From a virus, in the IMG/VR virus record IMGVR_UViG_3300037076_000416, positions 1-64,000 of that record: a stretch of DNA of 64,000 nt; one strand, written 5' to 3'. Of this stretch, positions 6,601-64,000 are shown piece after piece. Both the position numbers and the translations under genes were made by a program. Position 1 is the first letter of the stretch, and every line of letters begins with the position of its first letter. The notes under the pieces are model-generated. The model made no database searches. It was not told the origin of the DNA and saw only the letters and a list, made by a program, of their open reading frames with translations.

Positions 6601-6925
6601 CGTCGTCGTTATTGAACGGTTTGCCGGTCCCGTGCGCCCAGCGGTTGCGGGTCTCACGGAGTTCGGCGACATAATTGCGTTCAGCCACCCCCAGCGTCTT
6701 CCCCAGGGTCTCCCTCCAGTGGAACTGGATGGCGTTGAGGAGGAACTGCGGGTCGTTCGGGTCGGACGAGGTGAACGAGCCGGTCGTCATTTCCTTCTCG
6801 GCGGCCACCGTTGACACCCAGGTCGGGCCATACGCCTTCGTGAACTCCTCCTCGACGACCGGTCTCAGGCCGGCCACGAGGACGTCGAGCATCCGCCCGA
6901 TGCGCTCCTTGTTCGTGGTAGCCAT
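3659..6925 (-). CDS. DUF499 ATPase with N-terminal Swt1-like HEPN domain (Hma system)
   Basis: A 1088-residue protein. Residues ~5-125 fit the Swt1-type HEPN domain, including the Rx4H motif RNRWAH (R93/H98) expected of HEPN RNases or their relatives. A P-loop follows (TTFGGGKTH, ~247-254), then a Walker B-like strand VVILIDEW (~358-365) and a long DUF499 body. It is the third gene of the operon, starting 11 bp after the methyltransferase stop. Together with the upstream helicase and DUF1156 methylase it forms the helicase-methylase-ATPase (Hma) defence set. The likely role is ATP-driven sensing or remodelling coupled to the methylase and helicase, with HEPN as a possible RNase effector. Domains are seen directly; the role is inferred from known Hma gene content. 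Confidence 0.88.
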   Translation of the reverse strand: MATTNKERIGRMLDVLVAGLRPVVEEEFTKAYGPTWVSTVAAEKEMTTGSFTSSDPNDPQFLLNAIQFHWRETLGKTLGVAERNYVAELRETRNRWAHGTGKPFNNDDVYRAFDTAERLLRAVAAPQADELLKAKIAALSDSIDAAKKLKAQQTTATAVSAEPLKGLAPWRTLVTPHPDVASGNFRQAEFAADLAQVARGEGAKEYVDPREFFARTYLTEGLRLLLTGALRRLTGTGGESVLDLQTTFGGGKTHSMLALWHLADPTVQIASLPGLEGVLTDAKVTVLPRVARAALVGTALSPITPRVVDGTEIRTLWGELAWKLGGAKAFATVAEADRQAVPPGADALRKLLADHAPVVILIDEWVTYARLQWGKDELPGGTFDAALSFAQQLTGAVDQVPGALLVVSLPSSAIEVGGEGGQKALESLKHVVHRVDAPWRPAAAQESFEIVRRRLLEPLTPDGAKGRDEVVQRFGEMYAQHQGSFPAETKEKAYLDRIRNCYPIHPELFDRLFDDWSTLERFQRTRGVLKFMAAVVHALWERQDGNLLILPAAVPLDDTAVLPQLTQYLDDGWQPIIESDVDGVGSLPLRLDQENAGTYGRYSAARRVARTVFLGSAPLRAAANRGIDDRRILLGSVQPGETPATFGDALRKLAGQATYLYENSGRYWYATQPSVNQLARDRAEQQADDRVEMEIERRLKVALADRGPFARVHPSPKSGSDVPDEDEVALVALGPEYPHDAKTASSKAATAAGEILASRGAGARTNQNMLVFLVADHLRLAELTTAVREYLAWSAIVDDGEAGRLNLDAFQRNQAKSQRDGADESSRARIPETYQWLLVPEQTDPLAKVAVRPVKVSGSDPLAVRAGAKLRNEEHLITKFGGVNLRLVLDGALKERWTADHAFGLKQLWSWFAQYPYLPRLRDISVLEGAVRDGSSSLLWRSETFAYAAAREAPGEYRGIVAGRIAETPITSTSLIVDGSVLPDPLPGDQLPKPAPSDPKAATEAVRRVRRFHGEVSLTDPRRPIPELTKIVDEVIDRLAQQTEVRLRVTLQVEAEHSAADGFADDTVRTISENAKTLRFRVYDWEKD

Positions 6926-6936
6926 CCGGCTCCCCT

Positions 6937-12700: not shown

Positions 12701-13247
12701 CGGCGAACGGGTTGCCCGAAGCCGAGCCCTCGATCCGATCGCGGCTGAGCAGGGTGAAGTCGAGGTGGAACTTCTCGGCGAGCTCGGCCTGCCACTGCTC
12801 GACCAGCGAACCCGGCGCGACGATCAAGCAGCGGCGGAGGTCGCCGCGGACGATGAGTTCGCGAATGAGCAGGCCGGTCATGATCGTCTTGCCGGCGCCC
12901 GGGTCATCAGCGAGGAGGAAGCTAAGGGGCTGGCGCGGCAGCATCGCCTCGTAGACGGCGGTGATCTGATGTGGAAGCGCCTCGACGAGGCTCGTGCTAA
13001 GCGCGAGATAGGGATCGAACAGGTAGGCGAGGTCGATCCGCTTCGCCTCGCTGGCGAGCTTAAAGGCTTCCCCATCGCCGTCGAAGGCCCAGGGCTTGCC
13101 TTCCTCGACGATGCTCAGACGCGGCTCGTCCTCGCGGTAGACGAGGCGCTCGGCGACGGCGCCGTCGGCGGTCCGGTAGGTCAGCGTTAGGACCTCGGAG
13201 CCATGCCAGCTGACGTCGACGACCGTCACGGCACGGTCCGCGACCAC
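9747..13247 (-). CDS. SNF2-type superfamily 2 helicase with C-terminal DUF3883 (Hma system)
   Basis: A protein of 1166 residues from the GTG used here. Helicase motifs in order: Walker A DDPGAGKT (~114-121), DEAH (216-219), TATPHNG (~253-259) and motif VI in EQRFGRIHRIGR. A coiled-coil region (~390-480, very Ala/Glu rich) interrupts the two RecA lobes. Near the C-terminus NYGWDIES and LRLIEVKGR match DUF3883, a nuclease-like fold often fused to defence helicases. It is the first gene of the Hma operon. In-frame, conserved-looking sequence (LEELAKGALISG) continues upstream of the GTG to an ATC codon at 13290-13292 with a strong ribosome-binding site, so the true start may be non-canonical. Transcription probably begins in the 13.3-13.5 kb gap. 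Confidence 0.9.
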   Translation of the reverse strand: MVADRAVTVVDVSWHGSEVLTLTYRTADGAVAERLVYREDEPRLSIVEEGKPWAFDGDGEAFKLASEAKRIDLAYLFDPYLALSTSLVEALPHQITAVYEAMLPRQPLSFLLADDPGAGKTIMTGLLIRELIVRGDLRRCLIVAPGSLVEQWQAELAEKFHLDFTLLSRDRIEGSASGNPFAETDLQIARLDKLSRDEDLQLLLENAPDWDLVVFDEAHKLSAQLFSGEVKKTKRRLLAERVRPHTRHFLLLTATPHNGKEEDFELFMSLLDPDRFAGHKRKATDAAPPVSHPGELMRRLMKEQLVKFDGTPLFPPRYAYVVPYDLSGPEADLYQQVTTYVREEMNRAEKIKAAGEGKRGLIVGFALMVLQRRLASSPAAIHMSLKRRLARLERTLADTMVQRDGAQARINQPELAALTVADIEEIDDDEATAEEAEAAEETAVDLATAASTIAELRLEIERLKQLESLASQVRRLGTDTKWTELSRVLQDAPEMKDAGGGRRKLIIFTEHRDTLDYLVERIGTFLGRPEAIVAIHGGVPRDQRRAAESRFKNDPEAIVLVATDAAGEGINLQRAHLMINYDLPWNPNRLEQRFGRIHRIGRTEPCHLWNLVADKTREGDVYARLLEKLAVQAEALGGTVFDVLGELTFEGKPLRQLLIEAIRHGDSPEVRAQMTQVIDAALDVGQLRFLLATRALGADVLDTTKVASVRDELERADASRLQPFYVRDFFLLAYRRLGGQVREREPDRYELTKVPGRIRDRAREAAMRPGVLGAYERIAFEKTRVAVPGLPLAEFVCPGHPLLEATIDLILQDHRELLRRGALLVDESDPSATPRALVYLEHAIVDGRQTRDGHPIVVSRRLEFVELDDDGAHGAGAAPYLDYRPSSDEERALVAPTIDAAGWLAGSKLEARAIGYAIEQLARSHLAEVRERTLDRVERTRREVHARLTYEINYWDSQYARLREQERAGKETRLASSVARQRADDLADRLRSRMRELDLEAQIQALPPVVVGGAIVVPQGLLERLSGSPSRDVERFARETRRVERLAMEAVAAAERTAGRTPQDVSDRNYGWDIESRQPDGRLRLIEVKGRAQGATTLTVTRNEIAKSLNVPDRWYLAIVAVDGEKVADPIYLRRPFAIAPDPAATSVNYAIKELLSQGELVEISA

Positions 13248-26184: not shown

Positions 26185-27141
26185 CTACCGCGCAGGCCGG
26201 CCGCGGTCGCGGAGACGATCGATCGGGCTGCGGTAATTCGCCCGGGCACGCTCGGCAGCCGCGGACTGGCCGTACCTGCGAAGCATACCGCGGTCGCGCC
26301 AGCCGGCCAATTCCATCAAGTCGCCTTCCTGGCCGCCGTCGGCGAGCCACTGGTGCGCGAACGAGTGCCGGAACAGGTGCGGATGGAGGTGCTCGATCCC
26401 AGCCTGGCGGCCCCGCCGTTCGATGACCTGGAGCAGGCCGCTGCCGGTCATCGGCCCACGCTTGCCGATCCACAGGGCCGTCTCGCCGGTCGTCGCGTGC
26501 GTCCGCCGGACCCGGAGGTAGCGATCGAGCGCCCGCGCCGTCCCGGCGCCGAAGCGGGTCGTTCGCTGGCGACGGCTCTTGCTCGTCGCGCCCTGGATCA
26601 CGACGGCATTGCGGTCGAGATCGAGGTCCTCGACCCGGAGGCCGGCGCACTCACCCCGACGCATCCCGGTGTCGGCGAGCAGGCTGACCAGGGCATAGTC
26701 CCGGCGTTCCTCGAAGTCGTTGCCGCGGCAGGCGGCGAGGAGACGGGCGAGCTCGTCGTCGGTGACGACCGGCGGTGGATCTTCGGGCACGAGCGGCGGC
26801 TTCATCCTGGTCATCGGTGATTCGCGCAGCTCATCTTCTTCGACGCACCAGCGCCAGAAGGGCTGGAGGCTGCGGTAGGCGAGGTTCACCGTGGCCGGCT
26901 TCCGACCGAGCGCCTGGAGAGCGACGATGTACGCCTCGACGTGCTCGCGCCGGATGGCTTGCACCGCCCGGGGCATGCCCTGATCGGCCAGGAACGCCTC
27001 GAACCGGGCCAGGGCGGGCAGGTAGGTGTGGTCAACCGTGCCGGTCGTCTTGCCTTCGGCGCGCAGATGCCGGGCGTACGAGGGAAGCAGCTCGGCCACG
27101 GTCAGGCGCGACCCGTCGACGGCGGCCTCGTGGTCGGTCAT
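26185..27141 (-). CDS. Tyrosine recombinase/integrase (XerC/D-like)
   Basis: 318 residues from ATG 27141; a longer frame to 27288 is less likely. The N-terminal core-binding domain spans ~12-105 (TVAELLPSYARHLRAEGKT). Catalytic residues in order: R161 (TGMRRGE), K188, H255 and R258 (HPHLFRHSFAHQW), W281 in the usual His/Trp position, and Tyr290 (RRYGQS). It lies 176 bp from the 5' end of tRNA-Arg and probably mobilises the element to its left. No flanking att repeat was found by eye. Confidence 0.88.
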   Translation of the reverse strand: MTDHEAAVDGSRLTVAELLPSYARHLRAEGKTTGTVDHTYLPALARFEAFLADQGMPRAVQAIRREHVEAYIVALQALGRKPATVNLAYRSLQPFWRWCVEEDELRESPMTRMKPPLVPEDPPPVVTDDELARLLAACRGNDFEERRDYALVSLLADTGMRRGECAGLRVEDLDLDRNAVVIQGATSKSRRQRTTRFGAGTARALDRYLRVRRTHATTGETALWIGKRGPMTGSGLLQVIERRGRQAGIEHLHPHLFRHSFAHQWLADGGQEGDLMELAGWRDRGMLRRYGQSAAAERARANYRSPIDRLRDRGRPAR

Positions 27142-27316: not shown

Positions 27317-27392
27317 GCGCCTGTAGCTCAGTGGATAGAGCGTCGGCCTCCGGAGCCGAAGGTCGCAGGTTCGAATCCTGTCGGGCGCGCCA
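27317..27392 (+). tRNA. tRNA-Arg (anticodon CCG)
   Basis: 76 nt with all arms. The acceptor is GCGCCTG paired with CGGGCGC (one G-U), the D arm GCTC/GAGC, the anticodon stem CGGC/GCCG with loop CTCCGGA, and the T arm GCAGG-TTCGAAT-CCTGT. The discriminator is G, followed by an encoded CCA. It reads CGG codons. A serine recombinase gene on the opposite strand runs into it, so it is a likely integration site. Confidence 0.95.
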
Positions 27393-28830
27393 TTTCAACC
27401 TTTTCGGGCAGCGCCAGCGCCAATCCGTGCGCGTAGGCCGCCTGGGTCAGCCGGACACCCACGATCAAGGGGCCCGCAACCGTGATCCGCTCGTAGATGG
27501 CGTGCATCAGGTCTGCCTTTTCCTTCGGTACGTCAGCGGCTTGGAAGGACTCGCCGAGGGCGCGGAGCCACTCGACCGCGCGCTGGCCGGATAGGCCTTG
27601 GGCTGTGCGCTCCACGACGGCGTCCCGCTGCTCGCGGAGTGCCTTGAGGCGCGTCAGGTAGGTGTCGTCACCGAGCCGGCCGCCGGCGTGCTCCAGCGCG
27701 AGCTCGCGGATCTGCCGGTCGATCCGTGCCCGGTCGATCGCGACCGGCTGCTGGCTCGACCCGAGGGCAGCGACGACCGATGCCATCGTGCGGTCGTCGA
27801 GCGCGATGCCGGCGACCTGGGCCAGCACCGGCGCTTCCCAGGTCTGGTCGCCGAGGCGGGCCCTACGACCCCAGGCCTCGCACGGCTTCGCGTGGTGCTT
27901 GCGGTGGCGGCCATCGGCGAAGGTGCCGTCGTTGCGGAGTTGCCGCCCGCAGACGCACACGAGGAGGCCGCCGAGCAGGTCGACGCGGTCCCAGTTCTTG
28001 GGTCCCCCACCGCGGGTCTTGGCGCGGCGGATCTCCTCCACCCGCGCCCAGAGCTCGTCCGACACGGGCGGCGCCGCCCGCCAGGGTGCCGGTCGCCGCG
28101 TCTCGTCATTGCCGCGGTGCCGGCGGATCCAGCCGTTGTAGAGCGGGTTCATCAGGATCATCCGGATGCCGGTCGCGGCGAGCCCGGTCTCTGCCTCGAG
28201 CTGCACCGCGCTCACGTTCCCCAGGGCGTACCGCTCGAACAGGCCGACCGCGACCGGCATGCGGTCGGGATCGATCTCGAGGGTGTGCGGCGGCTCGGGC
28301 AAGCGTCGGAAGCCGAGGCCAGCATGGCCGCCGGGATCATGTTCGTGGTCGAACTTGGCGGCGTAGCCCTCGGTGATGCGCTCGGAGAGGCGGCGGCTGT
28401 ACTTCTCCGCCCCGGCCGCCTCGGAGATCAGCTCGTCCCAGTCCGAGGGGTCGGAGCTCAGGATCTTCCGGTCGCACATGACCAAGGCGACACCATTCGG
28501 GTGCAGCTCGTCTTCGAGCAGTTCGAGGGTCCGTCGCAGGTTGCGCTGCCAGCGATCCGAGTACCCCGTGAGGAGGAGGTCGAAGCGGCCCGATCGGAGA
28601 TCGTCGACCATCGTGGCCATCGTGGCCGAGCGCCAGACGGTGCGACCGCTGTGCGCAACCTGGTACACGAGCCCCGTGTCGACGAGGCCATGCCGCTCGA
28701 TGAAGCGGTCCTGCTGCTCACGCTGGCTTGCTGGGCCGTAGCGGTCGTACTGGCCGGCCGTTGACTCCCTGATCCAGCGGGCCGCCCGGAAGCCGCCGAT
28801 CTCGTCGAGGGAGCGGGGAAGGCGCTTCAC
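27328..28830 (-). CDS. Large serine recombinase (prophage integrase)
   Basis: 500 residues. The resolvase domain has the nucleophile in RWIRESTAGQYDRYG (Ser23) and a helical linker ending at RRLSERITEGYAAKF. A recombinase domain follows (NPLYNGWIRR), then a zinc ribbon (CVCGRQL ... KPCEAWG) and a coiled coil. The last ~20 residues (RPTGFEPATFGSGG) are antisense to tRNA-Arg, so the native stop probably lay in the unintegrated form and the current one is created by the junction. The GTG start overlaps the upstream small gene (GTGA). Confidence 0.9.
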   Translation of the reverse strand: MKRLPRSLDEIGGFRAARWIRESTAGQYDRYGPASQREQQDRFIERHGLVDTGLVYQVAHSGRTVWRSATMATMVDDLRSGRFDLLLTGYSDRWQRNLRRTLELLEDELHPNGVALVMCDRKILSSDPSDWDELISEAAGAEKYSRRLSERITEGYAAKFDHEHDPGGHAGLGFRRLPEPPHTLEIDPDRMPVAVGLFERYALGNVSAVQLEAETGLAATGIRMILMNPLYNGWIRRHRGNDETRRPAPWRAAPPVSDELWARVEEIRRAKTRGGGPKNWDRVDLLGGLLVCVCGRQLRNDGTFADGRHRKHHAKPCEAWGRRARLGDQTWEAPVLAQVAGIALDDRTMASVVAALGSSQQPVAIDRARIDRQIRELALEHAGGRLGDDTYLTRLKALREQRDAVVERTAQGLSGQRAVEWLRALGESFQAADVPKEKADLMHAIYERITVAGPLIVGVRLTQAAYAHGLALALPEKVEMARPTGFEPATFGSGGRRSIH

Positions 28831-34824: not shown

Positions 34825-36909
34825 ATGGCGAGCATCGAGACCCTGATTGCGCAGATCGACGACGCGGCCCTGCGCGAGAAGCTGGGCCGCGAGGTCGCCG
34901 AGATGAAGAAGCGCCTCGACTGGGGCCTCGTCTTCGAGCGCCACCTTCCCGAGAACGTGCGGGCGCTCTCCGCCCCGATCAAGCCCGGCTCAGTCGTTTG
35001 GGAGCGTCGGTCTGCGACACCCCGCCGTTTCCGGGTGCGCTCTGTCGACGGGGCCGATCTTCTGGTCGTCGTGGAGCCTGAGAAGACGACGGCATCGACC
35101 GACGCCCCGACCGAGCGGATCGCCCGGTCCGAGGTGCTCGTCGAGCAGGACTTCGCCGAGCCGATCTTCCCGGTGCCGACGCCAATCGGGGCGGTCCGAA
35201 ACGGCCCGGCTGACGCGCCCTACCACGCGGTGATGCAGGGCGAGAACTACCACACGATCCAGGCGCTACTCGCGGCATACGACCGATCGTTCGACCTGAT
35301 CTACCTCGATCCGCCCTACAACACCGGTAACAAGGACTGGTCCTACAACAACGACTACGTCGACCCGAACGACACCTACAGACCGTCGAGGTGGCTCGCA
35401 TTCATGGAGCGGCGGCTGCGCGTTGCACGCCGTCTGTTGAAGTCCGACGGCGTAATCGTGGTCACGATCGACGAGAATGAGGTTCACCGCCTCGGGATGC
35501 TCCTGGAGCAGCTCTTTCCCGAAGCGCGGACGCAGATGGTGACGATCGCGATCAACCCGCACGGCACGAGTGGCGAAGGTCTGTCACGCGTCGACGAATA
35601 CGCGTACTTCGTCTTCTTTGGTGGGACGCAGCCGAATCAGACGTTCGAGGACTTCTTCGGCCCTGAGGGTAGGACCCGTGCCCGCTGGTGGACCGAGTTC
35701 ATTAGGGGCAGCCACCAATGGACGCGGGCGGCGCGCCCCAACCTCTGCTATCCGATCATGATTGACGGTGCCGGCCGGATCGCGGGTGCCGGGGATCCGC
35801 TCCAAGGCCCCGACGAGGAGCGGCCGCTTCGGCAAGGGGACTTCGATCTTGCCTGGCCCGTCCGGGCCGACGGTCGACTCGGAATCTGGAAGCTGGAGGG
35901 CGCGCGCGTCCGCGAGATGTATCCGCAGGGCTACATCGTGGCGACCAAACCCGCGCGCGGCACCTGGTCGATCCGATATCTGCTTGAAGGCGCCTTGTTG
36001 GCGATTGAGTCGGGCGAGCTCGAAATCGCCGGCTACGACAGGTACGGTGGCGTGATCCTGCCTCCGAAACGGGGTCGCGTCGTGCCCAAGACCATGTGGC
36101 ATCGAGTGCGGCATACCGCGGGTGCCGCTGGTGGGACGGCAATGCTCGCGGCGCTCTTCGGACGCACCGGAGTGTTCTCGTTTCCGAAGTCGATTTACTC
36201 GGTACGCGACACCATCGACGCTGCCATCGGCAGCCGCAAGGACGCCTTGATCCTGGACTTCTTTGCCGGCTCCGGAACTACCCTCCACGCCACGCTGATG
36301 CTGAACGCCGGCGATGGTGGCCGGCGCAGATGCGTGCTCGTCACCAACAACGAGCTGCCGTTCCAGACGGCTCAGGCGCTCGAGCGGGAAGGGAGGTTCC
36401 GAGGCGATCCGGAGTTCGAGTCGGCCGGGGTCTTCGAGACTGCGACACGGCCGCGCGTCACGGCTGCGATCACCGGCGTTCGAGCGGATGGACTCCCGGT
36501 CGAGGGTGAGTATCTGGACGGCCGGGCGTACGCCGAGGGGTTCGCCGAGAACGTCGAGTTCTACCGCCTCGACTACCTCGATCCCGCGGAGGTCGAGTTC
36601 GGCCTGCGGTTTGCCGAGATCGAGCCTCTCTTGTGGCTCCGCGCAGGTGGCATTGGTGAGCGGGAGACCCTCGACCCGTCACAGCCGCTCGGCGTCCCCG
36701 CCCATTCTCCGTATGCCGTGCTCTTCGACCCAGCAGGATTGCCCGACCTCCTGGCCACGTTCTTGGAGCGGCCGGACGTCACCCTCGTCTTCATCGTCGC
36801 CGACTCGCCCGAGACCTTCGCCCAGATCGCCACCGAGCTGCCGCACGACATGGAGAAGGTTCGCCTCTACCGCGACTACCTCGACACGCTGCGGGGGGCC
36901 ACGCGGTGA
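34825..36909 (+). CDS. mod: Type III restriction-modification methyltransferase (Mod)
   Basis: 694 residues. DPPY at 162-165 (LIYLDPPYNTGNKDWSYNND) and the SAM motif DFFAGSGTTLHATLML near 478 give the beta-class Mod order. The long region between them is the target-recognition part. It overlaps the restriction subunit by four bases (GTGA). Mod methylates one strand of an asymmetric site and supplies specificity to the Mod-Res complex. The target sequence is not deducible here. Confidence 0.9.
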   Translation: MASIETLIAQIDDAALREKLGREVAEMKKRLDWGLVFERHLPENVRALSAPIKPGSVVWERRSATPRRFRVRSVDGADLLVVVEPEKTTASTDAPTERIARSEVLVEQDFAEPIFPVPTPIGAVRNGPADAPYHAVMQGENYHTIQALLAAYDRSFDLIYLDPPYNTGNKDWSYNNDYVDPNDTYRPSRWLAFMERRLRVARRLLKSDGVIVVTIDENEVHRLGMLLEQLFPEARTQMVTIAINPHGTSGEGLSRVDEYAYFVFFGGTQPNQTFEDFFGPEGRTRARWWTEFIRGSHQWTRAARPNLCYPIMIDGAGRIAGAGDPLQGPDEERPLRQGDFDLAWPVRADGRLGIWKLEGARVREMYPQGYIVATKPARGTWSIRYLLEGALLAIESGELEIAGYDRYGGVILPPKRGRVVPKTMWHRVRHTAGAAGGTAMLAALFGRTGVFSFPKSIYSVRDTIDAAIGSRKDALILDFFAGSGTTLHATLMLNAGDGGRRRCVLVTNNELPFQTAQALEREGRFRGDPEFESAGVFETATRPRVTAAITGVRADGLPVEGEYLDGRAYAEGFAENVEFYRLDYLDPAEVEFGLRFAEIEPLLWLRAGGIGERETLDPSQPLGVPAHSPYAVLFDPAGLPDLLATFLERPDVTLVFIVADSPETFAQIATELPHDMEKVRLYRDYLDTLRGATR

Positions 36910-39410
36910 AGATCGCGCTCAAGGACTTCCAGGCCACGGCGGTCGCCGAACTGCTGAGCCGCCTCGAGACCGCAAAGGTTGGCTACCGCGGCGGCGCGGG
37001 TCAACGGCAGGCGGTCGGACTCACGGCCACCACAGGTGCCGGCAAGACGATCATCGCTACGGCCGTGATGGAGACGATCCTTTTCGGCTCGGTCGAGGAC
37101 GGGATCACACCCGATCCTCGGGCCGTGTTCCTGTGGATGACAGACAAGCCCGAACTCAACGCCCAGACGCAGACGAAGATGCTCGACGCGTCATCCGACC
37201 TTCGCTTCGACCTGCTCCCCGAGATCGACAGCACCTTCAACTCCGAGTCGCTGGCGCCCGGCAGGGTGTACTTCCTCAACACGCAGAAGCTCGGGGCGAA
37301 GACCGACCTCGTGAAACGCGGGCCCCTCGTCAGGCGGAACTTCACCTTCTGGGACATCGTCCGCAAGACCATCGAGGACCCGACCCGGACGCTGTACCTG
37401 GTGGTAGATGAGGCCCACCGGGGCATGGTCGAAGCCCGCAAAGTCGCGGAAGCCAACTCGATCATCCAGCGCTTCATCAAGGGCTACCCGGACGAGGGAA
37501 TGCCGCCGTGTCCGATCGTTCTCGGCATCAGCGCGACCCCAGCCAGGTTTCTCGCCGTCGTCCAAGGCGCAGGGCGCACGACCAGCCAGTGGGACGTGCC
37601 GCCAGATGACGTAAAGGCCTCGGGATTGATCAAAGAGAAGACGCTCGGTGAGTGGGCCGGCGAACGCCAACACGACGCGATGGCGCTCTTCCCCGATGCC
37701 GTTCGGGCGTGGAAGGATGCGCACGATGACTGGGCGGCCTACCACGCGGCCTACGGCGCAGCCGGCGGGGAGACGCTCGTCGTCCCGGCGCTGATCATCC
37801 AGGTCGAGAACGAGGTCGGCGATCGTGTTACCGCGACCGACCTTGACGCCTTGATCCGGGCCGTCACCGATATCGCCGGGCCAATGCCCGACATCGCCTT
37901 CGCCCACGCCTTTGGCACCAACGTCCCCGAGCCCGTCGGTGGGCGGGTCATCCGCTATATCGAGGCGTCGAAGATCGCCTCGGACACGGACGCCCGCGTG
38001 GTGTTCTTCAAGACCAGCCTCGATGTGGGCTGGGACTGCCCACGCGCCGAGGTCATGTTCAGTTTCCGACGCGCGGTCGATCCGACCTCGATCGCCCAGA
38101 CGATCGGGCGGATGGTTCGCACCCCGCTGGCCCGCCGTATCGAGGAGAACGAGGACCTCAACAACGCCTACGTGTTCCTGCCCTTCTACGAGGAGGCGGG
38201 TGTCAAGGCGATCATCAAGCACCTCAACGACAGCGGGAACGAGGCGATCGCCGGCACGATCGCCCCACGACGCGAGACGATCAGCCTGCCGCTGCGGGCC
38301 GACCTCGAGCGGGCCATGGGCGCGATCCAGGCGGTGCCCTCCTACCTCGTCCCGACCCCCCGCTCGCGCCCCGAGATCCGGACCCTAGCCGACATAGGCA
38401 ACTTCCTGTCCGGCACCGGCATCGACCCGGGCGCCTTCAAGCGGGAGATGGCCGGCTGTGCCGCGCTGCTCGTTGCCCGGCGCGACGCCCTCGCGGGCGA
38501 TGCCGACTTCCAGAAGGAAGTCGGCGACCAGGGAGAGATCGTCGTGCGGCACGCCGAACTCGCCTTCGGCGCCGACGGCGGCATCGCCGAGGGCGCACGG
38601 ACGGTCCCCGCCACCGAGGAGAGCATCGGGCGGATGTTCGTCGCTGCCGCCCGGAAACTCACCAATGAAGCGGCGAGCACCTACGTCCGGCTCCGGCTCG
38701 CCGCGGATCCGACGAGCATTGGCGTCGCTCGCCTCGAAGCCTATTCGCTGGTCAACCGCGACGGAGTCATGGACGCACTGAACGCCCATGCCTCGGCACG
38801 GATCGACGTTCTGCGCGCCGAGCACGGGGCCGCGATCTCGCACCTCTCGGCCGCGCGCCAAGCGCGCTATCGCGCGATCCTGAGACAGGTCCCGGCGCCG
38901 TCACTCGTGCCGCTCAACCTGCCCGAGGTCGCGGTCTTCCGCAAAGGTGACGCTCCCCTGGCCAATCACGTCTATGCCGCTGATGGCGCTGCGGCCATCT
39001 ACCTCAACGGCTGGGAGACTGACACGGTTGTCCCGGAGACCACCAAGCCAACGACGATCGGATGGCTGCGGAATGGCGAGCGCGAGGGCTGGTTCTGCGT
39101 GCCCTGGCGCGATGGCAACATCTGGCGCGGATTCTTCCCCGACTTCCTACTCGTGCGCGAGGACGGCAATCGGGTGCTGGTGGACATTCTCGACCCCCAC
39201 GACCACACGAAGCCCGATGCAGTCGGCAAGGCGAAGGGCTTGTCCTCCTACGCCGCCACCCACGCCGAGCAACTCGGGCACGTCGACCTGGTCGCCAGGA
39301 TCGGCACCCGCTATCGCCGGCTCCACCTCGATGAGCTGGCCATCCGCAACAAAGTCGATGCGCTCTCGAGCACGGCCGAGCTGCTCAACCTCTACCAGCA
39401 TGAGGGATGA
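36906..39410 (+). CDS. res: Type III restriction enzyme, Res subunit
   Basis: 834 residues. SF2 helicase motifs: Walker A TATTGAGKT (~40-48), DEAH in LYLVVDEAHRGM (~163-174), SATPARF, and a motif VI region TSIAQTIGRMVRTPLARR. The C-terminal nuclease region carries FPDFLLVREDGNRVLVDILD, the usual PD-D/E arrangement of this Res subtype. It translocates or switches on DNA using ATP and cuts when two unmodified sites meet. No frameshift or truncation is visible, so the system looks intact. Confidence 0.9.
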   Translation: MKIALKDFQATAVAELLSRLETAKVGYRGGAGQRQAVGLTATTGAGKTIIATAVMETILFGSVEDGITPDPRAVFLWMTDKPELNAQTQTKMLDASSDLRFDLLPEIDSTFNSESLAPGRVYFLNTQKLGAKTDLVKRGPLVRRNFTFWDIVRKTIEDPTRTLYLVVDEAHRGMVEARKVAEANSIIQRFIKGYPDEGMPPCPIVLGISATPARFLAVVQGAGRTTSQWDVPPDDVKASGLIKEKTLGEWAGERQHDAMALFPDAVRAWKDAHDDWAAYHAAYGAAGGETLVVPALIIQVENEVGDRVTATDLDALIRAVTDIAGPMPDIAFAHAFGTNVPEPVGGRVIRYIEASKIASDTDARVVFFKTSLDVGWDCPRAEVMFSFRRAVDPTSIAQTIGRMVRTPLARRIEENEDLNNAYVFLPFYEEAGVKAIIKHLNDSGNEAIAGTIAPRRETISLPLRADLERAMGAIQAVPSYLVPTPRSRPEIRTLADIGNFLSGTGIDPGAFKREMAGCAALLVARRDALAGDADFQKEVGDQGEIVVRHAELAFGADGGIAEGARTVPATEESIGRMFVAAARKLTNEAASTYVRLRLAADPTSIGVARLEAYSLVNRDGVMDALNAHASARIDVLRAEHGAAISHLSAARQARYRAILRQVPAPSLVPLNLPEVAVFRKGDAPLANHVYAADGAAAIYLNGWETDTVVPETTKPTTIGWLRNGEREGWFCVPWRDGNIWRGFFPDFLLVREDGNRVLVDILDPHDHTKPDAVGKAKGLSSYAATHAEQLGHVDLVARIGTRYRRLHLDELAIRNKVDALSSTAELLNLYQHEG

Positions 39411-55216: not shown

Positions 55217-56734
55217 CTAGTTGCCTCCTCGCGCAAGGGCTGCCTGGACGTCCGGCATCATCGGCGCCACGGCGGGCGCGGGAGCCGGCTGGGTTGCTGG
55301 CGGAGGGGCCGCGGCGAGCCGCTCGCGGATGAGGGCGATCTGGCGCGGCGAGAGGCCGAGCTCCTCCCAGATGGTCTCCTCGTCGATGCCGAGCGCCTTC
55401 CACTTGGTCATCGCGTCGGTGTGGGTGGCCTCGGTCCGGCTCTCCGGGTCCTTCCAGATGATCTCGGCACCGAGGTCCTTCCCGCGCGGGTCGTCACGGA
55501 ACGCGAAGTTGAGCCGGAAGACCTCCTCCCAGGACTCGCCCTTGTAGAGCTGCGAGTCGAGGACCTTGGCGACGAGGCCCGTCTCGGCGCTCTTCAGGGA
55601 CTCGCCCGAGGGCGGCTGGCCCGACTGCGGCAGGAGGTAGTGGTACGGCGTCCGGCTGATCGCGCCGAGGTGCTGCACCTCCATCTGGACGCCGGAGATC
55701 ATCGGCGCGAGGTCGGTCTGCTCGAACTCCCCGAGCTCGGGAGTCGCCGGGTTCGGGTCCTCGGGGTCGGGCGGGGGCAGGATCCACAGGCGATCCACCG
55801 CGGCCTTGAACGGCTCGATCGGCTGGCCCGTCTTCTCGTCGATCTCGACCTCCCAGTTCTTGAGCCAGCGCTGGCGGAAGGCGGCGAGGTCCGACGCGTT
55901 GATCGTGTCGGCACGCAGCTTGTTGATCGCGTCCTGGTTGCTCATCACCATCGCGATCTCGGACTGCCCCTCGTCGGGCCCGAAAACGCCCGGGATCGGC
56001 CGGCCGTAGGCGTCGAGGACCGGGGCGGTGAGGCGCGGCCGGTTGACGAGCGGCACGATCGGGATGACGCGCAGCGGGTTCCGCACCGGCCACGGCTCGC
56101 CCGGGACCTCGTCGCGGGTCCACTGCGCGACCCGGCCCCAGGAGGCGGCGCTGAACTCGACCGCCTTCTGCTCCGATCGGAACTTGTAGATGCCGTCTGG
56201 GAGGTACAGCTCGGCGCGGTAGCGGCCGTCGTCCGCGAGCCAGCGCTTGAGGGCCGCGCGGCGCTTCCAGCTCTTGCCGGGCTCGGTCTCGACGGTGACC
56301 TGGAGCGCCGACTCGATCGTGGCCTCGGGCTCGCCGCTGACCGCGTCGGGCCAGACGAGCACGTAGGCGAGGCCCTTGACGAGCGACTCGGTGTGCGCGA
56401 TCTGCGACTCCGCGTCGAGCCGGTTGCGCTGCCACCAGTCCCAGGCGTCGGTGTCGCCGCCCCGGTTGTCGCCGATGCGAATGCCCTGCACCTGCAGCCG
56501 CTCGCGGTGGGCGTCCACGACGAGGGACATGAAGTTGGAGCTGAACTCGCGGAAGCGGTCGCCGAAGGCTGCCCGGAAGGTGTCCGACACGAACGCGAGC
56601 GGCTGGCGCCCGGCGTAGTACGCCTCGTACCGCTCCATCCGGTCGCGCCGATCGTCGAGGCGCTTGCCGAGCCGGGCGAGCCACCAGGGGAGCGAGCCGG
56701 GGTCGAGCGTGACGGGCGCCATCGGGTCGATCAT
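55217..56734 (-). CDS. Portal protein (SPP1 gp6-like)
   Basis: 505 residues: RRDRMERYEAYYAGRQPLAF, then SNFMSLVVDAHRERLQVQGI (the conserved N-terminal portal helices), IAMVMSNQDAINKLRADTIN (the C-terminal signature) and MISGVQMEVQHLGAISRTPY. It forms the dodecameric DNA entry ring. The ATG touches the terminase stop (TGATG). Family identity is firm from the combination of motifs and place. Confidence 0.85.
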   Translation of the reverse strand: MIDPMAPVTLDPGSLPWWLARLGKRLDDRRDRMERYEAYYAGRQPLAFVSDTFRAAFGDRFREFSSNFMSLVVDAHRERLQVQGIRIGDNRGGDTDAWDWWQRNRLDAESQIAHTESLVKGLAYVLVWPDAVSGEPEATIESALQVTVETEPGKSWKRRAALKRWLADDGRYRAELYLPDGIYKFRSEQKAVEFSAASWGRVAQWTRDEVPGEPWPVRNPLRVIPIVPLVNRPRLTAPVLDAYGRPIPGVFGPDEGQSEIAMVMSNQDAINKLRADTINASDLAAFRQRWLKNWEVEIDEKTGQPIEPFKAAVDRLWILPPPDPEDPNPATPELGEFEQTDLAPMISGVQMEVQHLGAISRTPYHYLLPQSGQPPSGESLKSAETGLVAKVLDSQLYKGESWEEVFRLNFAFRDDPRGKDLGAEIIWKDPESRTEATHTDAMTKWKALGIDEETIWEELGLSPRQIALIRERLAAAPPPATQPAPAPAVAPMMPDVQAALARGGN

Positions 56735-58260
56735 CAGAACCCCACGGCCTTCCGGGGCGTGCGCACGAACGCGACAGGCGCTTCCTGCATGGCCATCGCG
56801 ACGGCGCGGACGAGCGCGACGCAGGCGACGTTGGGGCGCGTCGAACCGTGCTTGGAGCGGGTGACCTTCATGCCGCGGTCGGTCAGAACGGCGGTCGTGT
56901 TGGCGACGTGCTCAGCGAGGACCGGATCGTCGGCGTGGACCAGTCGCCCCGTGGTGATGAGCTCGAAGGCCATCGTCGAGGGCGGGGCCATCACGGCCGC
57001 CGTCATGGGCACGTCGACCATGTTCAGGCCGTCCTGCTCGAGCATCTCGGCCGACTCGCCGAAGGCCACGCGGTCGAACGCGAAGGCAGGTCCTGGGATC
57101 GCCCGCCTCGTCTTCTCGTCGCGGGTCTGCGCCAGCGGGTAGGTCGTTCGGAGCGTGCGGAGGGCGACCCGCATCGCCTCGGCCGACACGATGCCCGTGG
57201 CCGCCTCGGGCGCGAACACCTGCGACCTCACCACGACGCGATCTCCCTGGCGTTGCGCGACCGCGACCGCGCCAAGCTCACCGTCCGGGCTCCGATCGAT
57301 GCCGACCCCGATCGGCAGAGCGACGTTGAGCGGCAGGTCGCCGCGCGTCGCAGACCACGCCCCTTCGCGCAACCAGGTGTCCTCGGTGCCCAGGAACTGG
57401 TTGAGGTGGTAGCGGCGCCATTCGAGGAGCGCACCGCGAGCCCGAAGCCTCGCGAACTCCCGACCGAGGTACTTGCCGTCCGCGAGCCAGGACGCGGGAT
57501 TGCAGGCGAGCCAGACCGCGGGGTCCTCGATGTCGGCGTCGCGCGGAGCGCCGTACCAGTAGATGAGGGTCCCGTTGACTCGGTCGCGGTAGATGAGCAG
57601 GGAGCCCCGCACCTCGAGCTCGCCGGTTCCGGAGAACATCGAGTCGTACAGGTCGGCGAGGATGCCCTCACCGGCGACGCCAGCGGTCGTGATCCACAGG
57701 GTGAAGGGCTGCTCACGGGCGCCGGTCCCGGTCGTGAGGGCCGTGTACAGCTCGGCTGACTTGTGGGCGTGCAGCTCGTCGATGATGTTGGCCGAGGGGT
57801 TGAGGCCGTGCTGGAGGGCGCCGTCGCTCGACAGGGAGCGCATGATCCCGCCGTTGCGGGCGCACTCGATTCGGAGGGAGCGGTAGGGCCGCAGGCGATC
57901 GAGCAGGAGCGGGGACCGGCGGACCATGCTGATCGACTGGCCCATGACGATCCCGGCCTGGTTGCGGGCCGCCGCGGCGACATAGACCTCGGGCTCGGAT
58001 TCGCCGTCGGCGTCGAGCATGTACAGCCCGGCACCGGCAGCCATGGTGCTCTTGGAGTTCTTGCGGGGGAGCCCGAGGCCGACCTCGTTGTAGATGCGGA
58101 GGCCGGTGGCGGGATCGAACTCGAGGGCTTCCCACCAGAACTCGCGCTGCCAGTCCTCGTAAATGAGGGGGCGTCCCGCCCATCGGCCCTTGGTGTGGCG
58201 GATGTACCGCTCGCAGTACGCGGCGAAATGGGGGCCGCCGGACAGCGCGTCGGGGACCAC
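56734..58260 (-). CDS. terL: Terminase large subunit
   Basis: 508 residues. ATPase motif GLPRKNSKST (~63-72), Walker B-like NIIDELHAHKS, and the nuclease half with IGVGIDRSPDG plus a later acidic patch. YDSMFSGTGELEVRGSLLIY lies in between. The layout is that of P27-associated HK97-type large terminases, which package DNA by headful or cos cutting. No frame break is visible. Confidence 0.88.
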   Translation of the reverse strand: MVPDALSGGPHFAAYCERYIRHTKGRWAGRPLIYEDWQREFWWEALEFDPATGLRIYNEVGLGLPRKNSKSTMAAGAGLYMLDADGESEPEVYVAAAARNQAGIVMGQSISMVRRSPLLLDRLRPYRSLRIECARNGGIMRSLSSDGALQHGLNPSANIIDELHAHKSAELYTALTTGTGAREQPFTLWITTAGVAGEGILADLYDSMFSGTGELEVRGSLLIYRDRVNGTLIYWYGAPRDADIEDPAVWLACNPASWLADGKYLGREFARLRARGALLEWRRYHLNQFLGTEDTWLREGAWSATRGDLPLNVALPIGVGIDRSPDGELGAVAVAQRQGDRVVVRSQVFAPEAATGIVSAEAMRVALRTLRTTYPLAQTRDEKTRRAIPGPAFAFDRVAFGESAEMLEQDGLNMVDVPMTAAVMAPPSTMAFELITTGRLVHADDPVLAEHVANTTAVLTDRGMKVTRSKHGSTRPNVACVALVRAVAMAMQEAPVAFVRTPRKAVGF

Positions 58261-58263
58261 GGC

Positions 58264-58758
58264 TCAGCCCACATCGCCGACCACCCGAAGTCGTGGCGGG
58301 AGGCCGATGTCGGCCGTGAGCGAGTCCAGCGCATGCTCACGCTCGATCCGAAGGCCCGTCCGAGCCGAGGGCGACAGGCCGAGTTCGCGGGCGAAGAGGC
58401 GGATGGCATCGCGGTAGTCGCGGACGATCTGGTGGAGCGGGTTCTTGACCAGCTCGCCCTTCTGTCCACGGACCAGGGGGCCCGACTGCGCCAGCAGCCG
58501 AACTGCGTATTCGTAGCCCGCGACGCCCTCGCAGTACGCCCGCAGGATGTCCCTATCGGCCGCCCGGATGACGCCCGTGTGGCGCATGTCGCGCAGGACC
58601 CGCCGCCAGACGGCCTTCGCCGCGTCGTCCATGTCGGCCGGGATCTTCGGGACGTCGGGCGAGGGCATCGGCTCGCGCAGGTTGAGGCGGCTCGGGCGCG
58701 TCTCGCCGCGGAGCTGCTTCACCTTCGTCGGGGTCGGGGCCGGACCCCGCCTACCCAT
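58264..58758 (-). CDS. terS: Terminase small subunit, P27 family
   Basis: 164 residues. The N-terminal RRGPAPTPTKVKQLRGETR is the hallmark of the P27 family. It is followed by MDDAAKAVWRRVLRDMRHTG, DRDILRAYCEGVAGYEYAVR and HQIVRDYRDAIRLFARELGL. It recognises the packaging start and hands DNA to the large subunit 3 bp downstream. Confidence 0.88.
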   Translation of the reverse strand: MGRRGPAPTPTKVKQLRGETRPSRLNLREPMPSPDVPKIPADMDDAAKAVWRRVLRDMRHTGVIRAADRDILRAYCEGVAGYEYAVRLLAQSGPLVRGQKGELVKNPLHQIVRDYRDAIRLFARELGLSPSARTGLRIEREHALDSLTADIGLPPRLRVVGDVG

Positions 58759-60129: not shown

Positions 60130-60621
60130 TCACCGCGCCACTCCGGCGCCCTGTGGCGCCCGTGGGCGAACCGGGGCCGCGGCGGGCACGGATATTTCTG
60201 GCGAAACTCGGCCGCGTGCACACGATTGGGAGGCGCGGACGTCCAGGAGCGCAGAACCCGCGTGTGGGGACCCCCGGTCGACCCTTCGTGCGTTCACGAG
60301 GCGCGCTCCGTTGGCGGAGTTCCTCGATCGGCAGAGCACCCGGGTGTTGGCGGGGTCGAACGGCCCGCCGCCATCGATCAGCGCATGCACGTGATCGAGC
60401 GTCAGGTCATGAGATGCGTGGGCAGGGTGCTCGACGCCATCGCCCGGACAAACCCAGCCGTACTGCCCGACGTGGCGGGCGATCATCCGCTTGGACAGGC
60501 GAGTCCATCGCGGATCAGCGTGAAGGTGATGGTTGGCCCCGATGCCCGACAGCCGCGGGTGCTGGCCGCAGCGTCCAGTCGTTCGGCTCGTGACGACGCC
60601 ACAGACGGTGCAGAGCTTCAC
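60130..60621 (-). CDS. HNH endonuclease
   Basis: 163 residues. The HNH motif is DLTLDHVHALIDGGGPFDPA plus NTRVLCRSRNSANGA, with CTVCGVV and CGQH cysteine/histidine pairs at the N-terminus. HNH proteins next to terminase genes are needed for DNA packaging in many siphoviruses. The last ~55 residues are low-complexity and may be a frame extension. Confidence 0.75.
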   Translation of the reverse strand: MKLCTVCGVVTSRTTGRCGQHPRLSGIGANHHLHADPRWTRLSKRMIARHVGQYGWVCPGDGVEHPAHASHDLTLDHVHALIDGGGPFDPANTRVLCRSRNSANGARLVNARRVDRGSPHAGSALLDVRASQSCARGRVSPEISVPAAAPVRPRAPQGAGVAR

Positions 60622-60815
60622 TCGCTAGACCACGACCGCCGTGCGGTTGGGCTGCCCTCGGGCGTCAAGACCTCGACCACCGTGCCCTCGGGCAGGGTCG
60701 GGTTGGACACGGGCGTCGTCTTCGCGCTCGCGCGGTTGACGGCGCGGACGTACCCGAGGTCGCGACAGGCAGGGGAGCCCGGGAGTCGGTGTGGATCTGA
60801 CCAGCGCGCCGTCAT
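60618..60815 (-). CDS. Small phage protein at the head of the late operon
   Basis: 65 residues, with an ATGA overlap to the HNH gene. Sequence such as PTLPEGTVVEVLTPEGSPTA looks protein-like. Its first ~23 codons lie inside the direct repeat whose second copy is 1.6 kb away. Function is unknown. Confidence 0.45.
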   Translation of the reverse strand: MTARWSDPHRLPGSPACRDLGYVRAVNRASAKTTPVSNPTLPEGTVVEVLTPEGSPTARRSWSSE

Positions 60816-60828
60816 GCCCGCAAGCGTG
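60746..60828. repeat. Direct repeat, copy 1 (83 bp)
   Basis: About 79 of 83 positions match the copy at 62325-62406, with one single-base gap and a few substitutions. It starts GGACGTACCCGAGGTCGCGA and ends CAAGCGTG. It covers the 5' part of the small phage ORF on the minus strand. Confidence 0.9.
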
Positions 60829-60941
60829 CGGACGGCGGGCCGCGATTCCTATTCGGTCGATTGGGCCATGCATGTCACCCGACCACTACCGCGTGTACTG
60901 CGCGGCGAGGCATAGCACCGCCGAAAACAACCCCTTGACTC

Positions 60942-60967
60942 GGAACCGTGAAACCGGGATGGCCGTC
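60942..60967 (+). promoter_or_regulatory. ECF-type promoter for the first sigma gene
   Basis: GGAACC, 16 bases, CGTC. This is the classical -35/-10 pattern of group-IV (ECF) sigma factors and suggests autoregulation. It also argues that translation starts at 60993, not at the upstream 60948. Confidence 0.6.
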
Positions 60968-60992
60968 GCGGACACTACGGGGTGTGGCGGAG

Positions 60993-61568
60993 ATGGAGCA
61001 CGACGAGGCGCGACTCTGGTCGCTGGCGCGCGGTGGCGATGCCCTGGCGTTCGCCGCCATCTTCGACCTGCACCGGGACCGCGTGTTCCGCCAGGCCGTC
61101 CGCCTGCTGGACGCCGGGCCTGACGCGGAGGACGTGTCGGCCTCGGCGTTCCTCGAGCTGTTCCGCAGGCGGGACGACGTCCGGATCGTCAACGGGTCGG
61201 TCCTGCCGTGGCTGCTGGTCACGACGGCCAACCTGGCGAGGAACTCCACGCGGGCACGGCGCCGCTACCGGGACTTCCTGGCGAGGCTGCCTCGAGACGG
61301 CACGGAGCCCGCATCGGCCGATGTGGCCCTGTCGGTCGTCGACCTCGACCTGGACCCCCGGCTCCAGCGCGCCCTGCGGCAGCTCTCGGAGGAGGACGTC
61401 GTGCTCCTGACCCTGGTGGCGCTCGAGGACTTCACGATCGCGGACGCAGCCGCAGTCCTCGGCCTGAGCCCGGGAGGGGCCAAGACGCGACTGCACCGCG
61501 CGAGGCAGCGCATCCGCAAGACCCTGCCCGAATTCCAGGTTGCCTACGACCAGGCGGGAGCCCCGTGA
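60993..61568 (+). CDS. ECF sigma factor
   Basis: 191 residues from ATG 60993. Sigma region 2 is at ~17-60 (IFDLHRDRVFRQAVRLLD; AEDVSASAFLELFRRRD) and region 4 at ~130-178 (LSEEDVVLLTLVALEDFTIA; LGLSPGGAKTRLHRARQRI). There is no C-terminal extension. The stop overlaps the next start by one base (TGATG), coupling it to a membrane anti-sigma-like protein. It probably directs transcription of its own cassette through the upstream ECF-like promoter. Confidence 0.85.
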   Translation: MEHDEARLWSLARGGDALAFAAIFDLHRDRVFRQAVRLLDAGPDAEDVSASAFLELFRRRDDVRIVNGSVLPWLLVTTANLARNSTRARRRYRDFLARLPRDGTEPASADVALSVVDLDLDPRLQRALRQLSEEDVVLLTLVALEDFTIADAAAVLGLSPGGAKTRLHRARQRIRKTLPEFQVAYDQAGAP

Positions 61569-62323
61569 TGACGATCCAGATGGACGACCGCTACGCGAGC
61601 GCGCTGCGCGAGGCGCTCATCGACCACGTCCAGACCGCGTCGGGGCGTCGACGCGGCGCCGCACGCCGCCTGGCCATCGGCGCCGCCGCCGGCCTGCTGC
61701 TTGTCGCGGGGGCAGCTGCCGGAGCGGTCGCGACCGGCATCCTGCATTTCCCGGGCACGCCGGACGTAGCGCCTCTGGCGCCGAGCGTCACGGTGACGGG
61801 CGAGGGGACCCAGACGGTGGAACTCGGCGCGCCGCCGGCCGGCACGACGGAACTCGAGATCAGGCTGGCATGCCTGACGGCCGGGGCCTTCCAGACGGCC
61901 GACGGCGCCTCGCTCGTGTGCGACGCCTCCAGCGCGGGCACGGGCGCGATGGACTGGCACCTGGCCGTCGTCGCCGGCCAGCACTCGACGGTCATCACCG
62001 CGCGCGCGGGCGAGCGGTGGCGCCTCGTGGCGACCTACTCACGCGTGACGGACACCGCGTGGGGCGTCAACGCGGACGGGCTCACCTACGGGGTCCCCAA
62101 CGACCGCGGCACGCCCGACCTCGTGGCGGCCGTCGCCAGCAACGGAAGGGTGGGCTACGTCTACAGCCGGGACATGTTCCCGCCGACCCCGTCCTCGCTC
62201 CAGATCGGGGGCGACCCCGAGCCTCGCACCATCACTGTCTACACCTCCGACGGCCACACGGTCATCGGGCAGATCCGCACCGGCGTCAACCCGAGCACCG
62301 CCCCGGCGAGCACCGCCCCGTAA
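61568..62323 (+). CDS. Membrane-anchored anti-sigma-like protein
   Basis: 251 residues. A short cytoplasmic N-terminus (~1-34) with ASALREALIDHVQTASGRRR is followed by one transmembrane helix (~36-57, AIGAAAGLLLVAGAAAGAV) and an extracellular beta-rich domain with LACLTAGAFQTADGASLVCD and RAGERWRLVATYSRVTD. No zinc HxxxCxxC motif is seen. Genetic coupling to the sigma gene and topology support an anti-sigma or sensor role. Confidence 0.6.
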   Translation: MTIQMDDRYASALREALIDHVQTASGRRRGAARRLAIGAAAGLLLVAGAAAGAVATGILHFPGTPDVAPLAPSVTVTGEGTQTVELGAPPAGTTELEIRLACLTAGAFQTADGASLVCDASSAGTGAMDWHLAVVAGQHSTVITARAGERWRLVATYSRVTDTAWGVNADGLTYGVPNDRGTPDLVAAVASNGRVGYVYSRDMFPPTPSSLQIGGDPEPRTITVYTSDGHTVIGQIRTGVNPSTAPASTAP

Positions 62324-62324
62324 T

Positions 62325-62406
62325 GGACGTACCCGAGGTCGCGACAGGCAGGGGACCCGGGAGTCGGTGTGGATCAGACCAGCGCGCCGCCATGCCCCCA
62401 AGCGTG
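62325..62406. repeat. Direct repeat, copy 2 (82 bp)
   Basis: Begins two bases after the stop of the anti-sigma-like gene and matches the copy at 60746-60828 in the same orientation. Together they bracket the first sigma/anti-sigma pair. Confidence 0.9.
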
Positions 62407-62456
62407 GGGTAGGTTTGGGCCATGCCTTCGGGGCTTCCGGGCGATGGGGCGAAGAT

Positions 62457-62482
62457 TGAACCGGGCAGGGTCCGCTCGCATC
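62457..62482 (+). promoter_or_regulatory. ECF-like promoter for the second sigma gene
   Basis: TGAACC, 16 bases, CATC. It is similar to the promoter of the first pair. The -10 ends only eight bases before the ATG at 62491, so the transcript may be nearly leaderless. Confidence 0.45.
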
Positions 62483-62490
62483 TGTAGAGC

Positions 62491-63063
62491 ATGGTGGCCA
62501 TCGAACGACTGGAGGGCCTGATCAACGTGGGGCCTCGCGCGTCCGGGGGGACGGAGGTCGAGCGGAGGGCAGCCTTCGAGCGGTTCACCCAGAGCCGTTT
62601 GGAGCGCGCCTACCGCTTGGCTGGTCTCCTTCTCCGCGATCGAACGGATGCCGAGGATGCCGTCCATGACGCCGCGGTCCTGGCCTGGCTCCACTGGGGG
62701 GAGCTGCGCGATCCCGAGCGGGTCGACGCCTGGTTCGACCGGATCCTCGTCAACGGCTGCCGCGCGCGGATGCGCCGAAAGATGATCCGCCCGCTCGTCT
62801 TTGCCAACGGAGCCGAGGCGCCGGGCCCCGACGCATTCGCCGGCCTGCACGAGCGCGAGATCCTCCATCGGGCTCTCGCGACCCTCGACGCCGACCACCG
62901 CGTGGCGGTCGTCCTGCGCTACATCGCCGACCTGTCGCCCGCCGAGATCGCCGCCCGGACGGGCGAGCGCGAGGGCACCGTGAAGTCGCGGCTCCACTAC
63001 GCGCTGCGCCAGATGCGTGCGGCCCTCGACGCCGCGGAGCGGGCGCCCGGAGGTTCCCGATGA
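62491..63063 (+). CDS. ECF sigma factor (second pair)
   Basis: 190 residues. Region 2 is RLERAYRLAGLLLRDRTDAE with DAAVLAWLHWGELRDPERVD. Region 4 is ILHRALATLDADHRVAVVLR, then LSPAEIAARTGEREGTVKSR. It is clearly different in sequence from the first sigma gene, so this is not a recent duplication. Its stop overlaps the following gene (ATGA). Confidence 0.88.
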   Translation: MVAIERLEGLINVGPRASGGTEVERRAAFERFTQSRLERAYRLAGLLLRDRTDAEDAVHDAAVLAWLHWGELRDPERVDAWFDRILVNGCRARMRRKMIRPLVFANGAEAPGPDAFAGLHEREILHRALATLDADHRVAVVLRYIADLSPAEIAARTGEREGTVKSRLHYALRQMRAALDAAERAPGGSR

Positions 63064-64000
63064 ACGACGAGCGCCTTGAGCGCGAGGTGCGTGCCGCCCT
63101 CCTCGAGGACGATCCCGGCCCGGTCGGCAGCGGACTCCGGGCGCGCATCGCCGCGGTGCCCGACGACGCGGCGCTTCGGCCCAGGCTCGTCCGGTCTCCG
63201 CGCGTTTCCCGGCTGATGGTCTCGGCGGCGGCAGTCGCCGCGGTGGTCCTCGTCAGCGCCACGCTCGTCATCGGGTTGGGCGCTCGCCGGACCTCGGTCG
63301 GACCGGCGCCGAGCGTTCTTCCCTCGGTTATGCCGATCAGCCCGGCGCCGTCAGCCGTGCCATCTGTGTCGCCCGCTCCCACGCCGAGTCCGTCGGGGTT
63401 GACTCCCGTGCCTGCCCCGTGGGGTGGCCTGCGCTGGCCGGCACCGATCGTCTTGCCCGACGCCAACTCGGTCGAGGGCGTCACCACATTCGACGGACAG
63501 CTCTTCGCAGTCGGCCACATCGTCGGAACGGGTGGCCAGAACCCGGTCGCTGTCTGGCGATCGTCGGACGGGACGACGTGGACGCCACTCGCCCAGAGTG
63601 GAGCGACGTTTGCGGGGGACGCCTTTGTCGAAAGCCTCGTCGCGACCCCGGACGGCCTTCTCGCCTGGGGGCCGGCCGGCGGATCAACCTGCACCGGACA
63701 GGGAGAGGGGCAGGCAACGTGCGTGCCGCCTTCCGACGTCATCTGGAGGTCGCCCGACGGGAGTAACTGGACCCGGGATGCGTCTGCCTTCGCGGGCGCG
63801 TGGCTCCAGGCGATCGCCAGAGGAACGCACGGTTTCGTGGCCATCGGGGACATGGGCTGGGACAGGCCGGCTATCTGGCTCTCGGACACCGGTGCGACCT
63901 GGCAGCGGCTCGCCCTGCCCGCCGCCGTGTTCGCCGACGCGCACTTCTCCACCGTCCGCGCGACGTCGACCGGTTACGTCCTCGCCGGCGGGACGGGTTC
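63060..64000 (+). CDS. Anti-sigma-like membrane protein with sialidase-like repeats (partial)
   Basis: The frame runs off the end of the window (313 residues visible). A cytoplasmic N-terminus of ~52 residues is followed by one transmembrane helix (~53-76, MVSAAAVAAVVLVSATLVIG) and a Pro/Ser-rich linker (~82-120). An extracellular domain then has repeated Trp-containing units (VWRSSDGTTWTPL; IWRSPDGSNWTRD; IWLSDTGATWQRL) that resemble Asp-box/BNR propeller blades. ATGA coupling to the sigma gene makes it the probable anti-sigma sensor. Confidence 0.7.
   Translation, partial: MNDERLEREVRAALLEDDPGPVGSGLRARIAAVPDDAALRPRLVRSPRVSRLMVSAAAVAAVVLVSATLVIGLGARRTSVGPAPSVLPSVMPISPAPSAVPSVSPAPTPSPSGLTPVPAPWGGLRWPAPIVLPDANSVEGVTTFDGQLFAVGHIVGTGGQNPVAVWRSSDGTTWTPLAQSGATFAGDAFVESLVATPDGLLAWGPAGGSTCTGQGEGQATCVPPSDVIWRSPDGSNWTRDASAFAGAWLQAIARGTHGFVAIGDMGWDRPAIWLSDTGATWQRLALPAAVFADAHFSTVRATSTGYVLAGGTG

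Follow-up and report, generated by a model that had tools for sequence, protein, structure and literature searches.

Two copies of a conserved phage lysis-leader element bracket an ECF sigma/anti-sigma pair inside a prophage at tRNA-Arg

The DNA analysed here (the window, 64,000 nucleotides) is the first 64 kb of the 71,171-bp virus record IMGVR_UViG_3300037076_000416. Integrase, terminase, portal, capsid and tail genes lie between two att cores, as in a temperate siphophage prophage, and near the right end of the window an ECF sigma/anti-sigma pair is followed by a second such pair, the first having a near-identical direct repeat on either side (Table 1). The phage sides, when joined, reproduce the uninterrupted attP of a near relative, UViG_3300037086_000245, with zero mismatches through the core, where the BLAST segments meet; together the att half-sites are nearly palindromic, GCGCGCCCGACA-GG-TGTCGGGCGCGC in relatives. 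From the identical att cores and this attP match, the prophage is about 43.3 kb long (27.38-70.69 kb), and the three ECF pairs of the record (60984-62323, 62491-64559 and about 68729-70310, in record positions) therefore all lie inside it. The original prediction had considered that the cassette was inserted next to the prophage, or that the repeats were an att duplication equal to the phage core. Neither holds: the cassette is internal, the true att core has another sequence, of 23 bp, and the 83-bp repeat lies at neither prophage end.

Table 1. Features of the prophage ends, the late region and the two sigma/anti-sigma pairs of the window.
Feature	Position	Strand	Evidence
tRNA-Arg (CCG), integration target	27317-27392	+	ARAGORN, Rfam RF00005
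Large serine integrase	27328-28830	-	PF00239 2.4e-11; phrog_95 2.4e-38
attL core CCTGTCGGGCGCGCCATTTCAAC	27377-27399	+	exact 23-bp match to attR
Terminase large subunit	56734-58260	-	phrog_9 3.4e-84
Terminase small subunit, late operon marker	58264-58758	-	phrog_83 4.9e-31
HNH endonuclease, minus-strand downstream of copy 1	60130-60621	-	phrog_589 1.9e-6
Residual C-terminal tail of membrane (holin-like) phage gene	60648-60722	-	96 % over 25 aa to longer L035 gene
Repeat copy 1, lysis-leader element of about 140 nt	60730-60873 (83-bp repeat 60746-60831 inside)	-	nhmmer and alignment of 31 copies; leader ORFs
ECF-type promoter-like site GGAACC-N16-CGTC, upstream of sigma-1	60942-60967	+	pattern search
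ECF sigma factor 1	60984-61568	+	PF08281 1.6e-12; PF04542 6.9e-8; TIGR02937 above its cut-off
Presumed membrane anti-sigma 1	61568-62323	+	position only; no known family
Repeat copy 2, degenerate lysis-leader element	62325-62426	-	self-BLAST, copy alignment, leader-ORF reading
Weaker ECF-like promoter GAACC-N16-CATC, upstream of sigma-2	62458-62482	+	pattern search
ECF sigma factor 2	62491-63063	+	PF08281 5.3e-13
Presumed anti-sigma 2	63060-64000 in window (to record 64559)	+	PF13088 1.9e-5, below its cut-off; hydropathy
attR core, identical to attL CCTGTCGGGCGCGCCATTTCAAC	record 70666-70688, beyond window		exact 23-bp match

At the left end, the 3′ end of the serine integrase gene runs into attL and the tRNA-Arg. 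Joining the two halves gives a free-phage integrase frame that spans attP, ends in ...ARPTGVGRAISTYDMPIEGRDEWEAAARVRSA (unbroken in L044, L058 and L136) and overlaps the start of a LuxR-type HTH gene by GTGA, whereas in the lysogen, both in the window and in relative G100, the integrase tail is the tRNA-antisense ...ARPTGFEPATFGSGGRRSIH. Integration thus swaps about 25 C-terminal residues of the integrase and parts it from the HTH gene (27328-28830; record 70336-70688). To the left of the tRNA, the window matches genome G081 at 99 % over 140 nt at the tRNA and at about 81 % over 2.7 kb, so that the host probably belongs to the Chloroflexota family of G081; the G081 site (left flank plus tRNA match 99 %) is already occupied by a related integrase, and a joined host-flank query yielded no empty attB with the same right flank. 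A tyrosine integrase gene just left of the tRNA-Arg (26185-27141, phrog_1) suggests another element at the same locus. Elsewhere on the record, the host flank carries a complete-looking Hma-type candidate defence operon, HmaA/B/C (3659-13247; PADLOC, E 0 to 2e-294), and the prophage a type III restriction-modification pair (34825-39410).

The repeat pair is real, as originally noticed: self-BLAST of the 71,171-bp record aligned 62325-62409 with 60746-60831 at 94.2 % identity over 86 columns (E 6e-30), and these are the only two copies in the whole record. Exact sub-patterns of 20-23 nt occur at both copies and nowhere else (chance expectation 0.00-0.05); a candidate third copy at 42547 was rejected, being a weak match with 2 mismatches to the 20-nt part alone that longer searches did not support. 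The reported length of 83 bp describes the core correctly and falls short of the homologous unit, which extends over about 60730-60873. Likewise, the left copy does overlap the first phage ORF, as stated, and more exactly it encodes the start of that minus-strand ORF (60618-60815). No tRNA or Rfam origin of the repeat was found with ARAGORN and Rfam.

Between the repeats lies a compact two-gene unit. The ECF assignment reflects a protein of about 190 aa with sigma-70 regions 2 and 4 only, and the promoter-like site stands about 41 nt before the sigma-1 start and about 70 nt from the end of copy 1, with 1.1 such sites expected in the whole window. The gene for the presumed anti-sigma 1 overlaps that of sigma-1 and its product has one TM segment, at about residues 37-55 by hydropathy; it had no match in Pfam, NCBIfam or PHROG, nor in 107 genomes of the Chloroflexota family, and its presumed role rests on position and the TM segment. 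The presumed anti-sigma 2 combines a TM segment with a BNR-like extracytoplasmic part, and the partner of sigma-3 belongs to the CU044_5270 family; the zinc-type HxxxCxxC motif and known anti-sigma families are absent from the partners of sigma-1, -2 and -3, and neither sigma-1 nor the sigma-3 partner matched anything in the viral contigs. By its gene order and promoter, the sigma-1 unit looks like a signal circuit that is complete in itself and auto-regulated, and is plausible as lysogenic-conversion cargo.

What the repeats themselves are became visible through a third copy in a Chloroflexi MAG. The corresponding element, about 140 nt in an alignment of 31 copies, gave 36 matches in 21 of the 107 genomes of the MAG's Chloroflexota family, with 1-4 copies each; among viral contigs, exact repeat patterns occurred in two relatives only. 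Its minus strand carries a ribosome-site-like stretch, a start codon and a leader ORF of 28-32 codons whose product reads MTARWSDPHRLPG...GYVRAVN...R. Fourteen copies directly precede phage lysis genes, and in 12 of these the leader stop overlaps the start of the next gene (ATGA, GTGA or slightly longer). The genes that follow are either a small membrane protein, holin and Amidase_2, or a coiled-coil protein with a papain-like peptidase, or a GH25-like lysin (Amidase_2 and Peptidase_C1 are Pfam assignments; the holin, coiled-coil and GH25 labels come from sequence inspection). Length variants of the leader preserve the reading frame, and changes fall more often at third codon positions (33, vs 15 and 18 at the others). 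Synonymous changes make up 45 % vs 27 % expected, an excess that is only suggestive of coding, 78 of 1000 permutations being as high. Read from sequence, the repeats are the conserved start-piece (5′ leader) of a minus-strand lysis/late operon. A Chloroflexi MAG locus (L005:1531-4062) holds, within 2.5 kb, a tRNA-Pro with what looks like an att remnant, the C-terminal remnant of a serine integrase, the HTH gene and a truncated leader element.

In the present record, the leader ORF of copy 1 has its minus-strand start at 60815 and is fused to the residual holin-like tail, which is frameshifted; copy 2, with a 1-nt and a roughly 30-nt internal deletion, has a frameshifted leader and no lysis gene after it. 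Searches of this record with other lysis proteins gave no match, and the prophage may be lysis-defective. Single-copy loci without sigma genes are common, which is the cassette-free arrangement that the original prediction had proposed to look for. Its two grounds for doubt, a widespread repeat unrelated to the cassette and relatives with both copies lacking sigma genes, each proved partly true: the element is indeed widespread, and one related phage, UViG_3300035523_000137 (L136), carries the element twice, 1.54 kb apart, with a piece of the HTH gene in between, and lacks sigma genes. The repeats are thus landmarks of the phage and not the ends of a cassette.

The non-lysis side of the element faces variable accessory genes, followed by the small LuxR-type HTH gene and attR. 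Relative G100, which has both att cores, gives the full order: tRNA-Arg/attL (30967), integrase, and then, further on, amidase, holin, element, ECF sigma, HTH and attR (51179). The element occurs in 21 genomes and the HTH gene in 22, with both in 16. Cargo in this slot differs among G100, G008, L136 and L058, as in a moron slot, and in the corresponding stretch of UViG_3300037086_000245 the element and ECF genes are both absent, different cargo lying between HTH and HNH. Four relatives (G100, G007, G023 and G074) have an ECF sigma gene no more than 1.5 kb from the element, the one in G007 being sigma-3-like (58 %, its partner 66 %). Against a background of 123 region-4 matches per 22.4 Mb in seven family genomes, about 0.3 would be expected near the element (33 copies, 1.5 kb each), giving a hand-calculated Poisson probability of about 1.5e-4 for copies that are not fully independent. 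The slot of the present prophage holds ECF pairs 1 and 2, the third pair lying in a further right-end fragment.

For the second copy, unequal or other recombination, one of the options in the original prediction, stays the best account, in the following form. Accessory units, each a leader with its cargo, would accrete stepwise at tRNA-Arg as prophages that are related, or stacked in tandem, recombine with each other; copy 1 would then be part of the present late operon and copy 2 a decayed relic ahead of an older sigma-2 unit. Three observations favour accretion. In G008, stacked remnants leave att sites at 23632, 28121 and 34644 at one tRNA-Arg. In the present record, a 61-bp repeat (97 %; record 66985-67045 and 70611-70671) consists of an att half-site with the start of the small HTH gene, and its 66985-67045 copy is joined directly to a truncated ParB/methyltransferase gene (67001-67855), so that the right end of the record is already composite. 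The third is the two-element layout of L136. A direct ancestor (a sigma-1 unit with one element, or a sigma-2 unit alone) was found at none of the loci examined, which makes the order of events a reconstruction. Within the accreted unit, sigma-1 would be transcribed from its own ECF promoter and held by its membrane partner until an envelope signal frees it, and the lysogen would so acquire an extra signal-responsive regulon (lysogenic conversion). Taken as a whole, the explanation by a conserved lysis-leader element present twice, an accessory slot, accretion and signal-responsive cargo has in our estimate a probability of about 0.78.

Alternatively, the leader element may first have been duplicated locally and then have taken in, between its two copies, a sigma-1/anti-sigma-1 operon from a host, phage-phage recombination playing no part. 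The nearest relatives of sigma-1 (70-74 %) sit in loci without the element within the 2 kb examined, so that sigma-1 could have been captured separately from a host, and copy 2 begins only 2 nt past the anti-sigma-1 stop (62323). We nevertheless consider this course unlikely: the L136 layout, with different cargo and an HTH fragment between its two copies, is that expected of fused right ends, and stacked prophage remnants are present at the locus both in G008 and in this record.

It is improbable that the repeat is a regulatory region of sigma genes (a shared promoter/operator) duplicated along with paralogous ECF operons. Although both sigma-1 and sigma-2 have it upstream, and in L053 and L054 it adjoins sigma genes, its conservation tracks the lysis genes and the opposite strand, the sigma operons of L048 and L050 are oriented toward it, sigma-1 and sigma-2 are not close paralogues, and sigma-1 has a promoter of its own at a shorter distance. 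Less credible still is an att or insertion duplication, in which the cassette would be a mobile unit with its own 83-bp boundary sites. The direct orientation, tight bracketing and rare cargo would fit such a unit, but the true att core is another sequence, most relatives have a single element beside lysis genes and without sigma genes, no recombinase lies inside, and copies that occur singly are whole elements rather than vacant sites. A transposon, MITE or integron cassette was likewise rejected, as these are direct copies of a phage leader in a unit lacking a recombinase. An assembly artefact of the metagenomic contig, conceivable for a single assembled record with a 351-bp inverted repeat (97 %) at its ends (record 1-351 and 70736-71086), is the least credible of all, given that indels and a divergence of 6 % separate the copies and that a similar layout with two copies occurs in an independent phage assembly. 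The inverted repeat lies outside the prophage and may be a host duplication or an assembly effect.

ECF sigma/anti-sigma pairs are usually taken to be chromosomal envelope-stress circuits; three pairs in one att-bounded prophage, with others in this slot of related prophages, suggest that some ECF circuits of Chloroflexota, a little-cultured phylum, are phage cargo. We would tentatively go further and suppose that one group of temperate phages of Chloroflexota collects and shuffles complete operons of ECF sigma and membrane anti-sigma genes in the slot between leader and attR, the leader possibly serving as the homology for shuffling, and that lysogens might thereby gain stackable regulons for extracytoplasmic signalling. 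The leader element, the att-side HTH gene and the palindromic att could serve as landmarks for spotting such Chloroflexota prophages.

We found no direct precedent in the open-access literature for prophage-borne ECF sigma/anti-sigma cargo, and among the nearest known arrangements is the moron region between the lysis genes and attR of temperate siphophages, for example in streptococcal and staphylococcal prophages. In both, the stretch from the lysis cassette to the attachment site holds variable cargo with its own transcription, whereas here the cargo is ECF sigma/anti-sigma operons, three deep, in Chloroflexota hosts, and a conserved leader ORF and an HTH gene on the att side close off the slot. 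Sporulation-type sigma factors encoded by phages alter host development (PMC9429907); there, as here, host-type sigma factors are carried by phage and could reprogramme the host, but the present ones are ECF sigma factors with presumed membrane anti-sigma partners, in a prophage. Finally, BPs-type mycobacteriophages have attP inside a coding gene and an attB overlapping tRNA-Arg, such that integration alters the C-terminus of the gene product (PMC9262239). Their integration-dependent immunity shares with the present prophage an attP in a gene, a tRNA-Arg attB and a C-terminus swap, a likeness of sequence layout and not of family: in BPs the components are a repressor gene and a tyrosine integrase, and here they are a serine integrase gene and an overlapping HTH gene.
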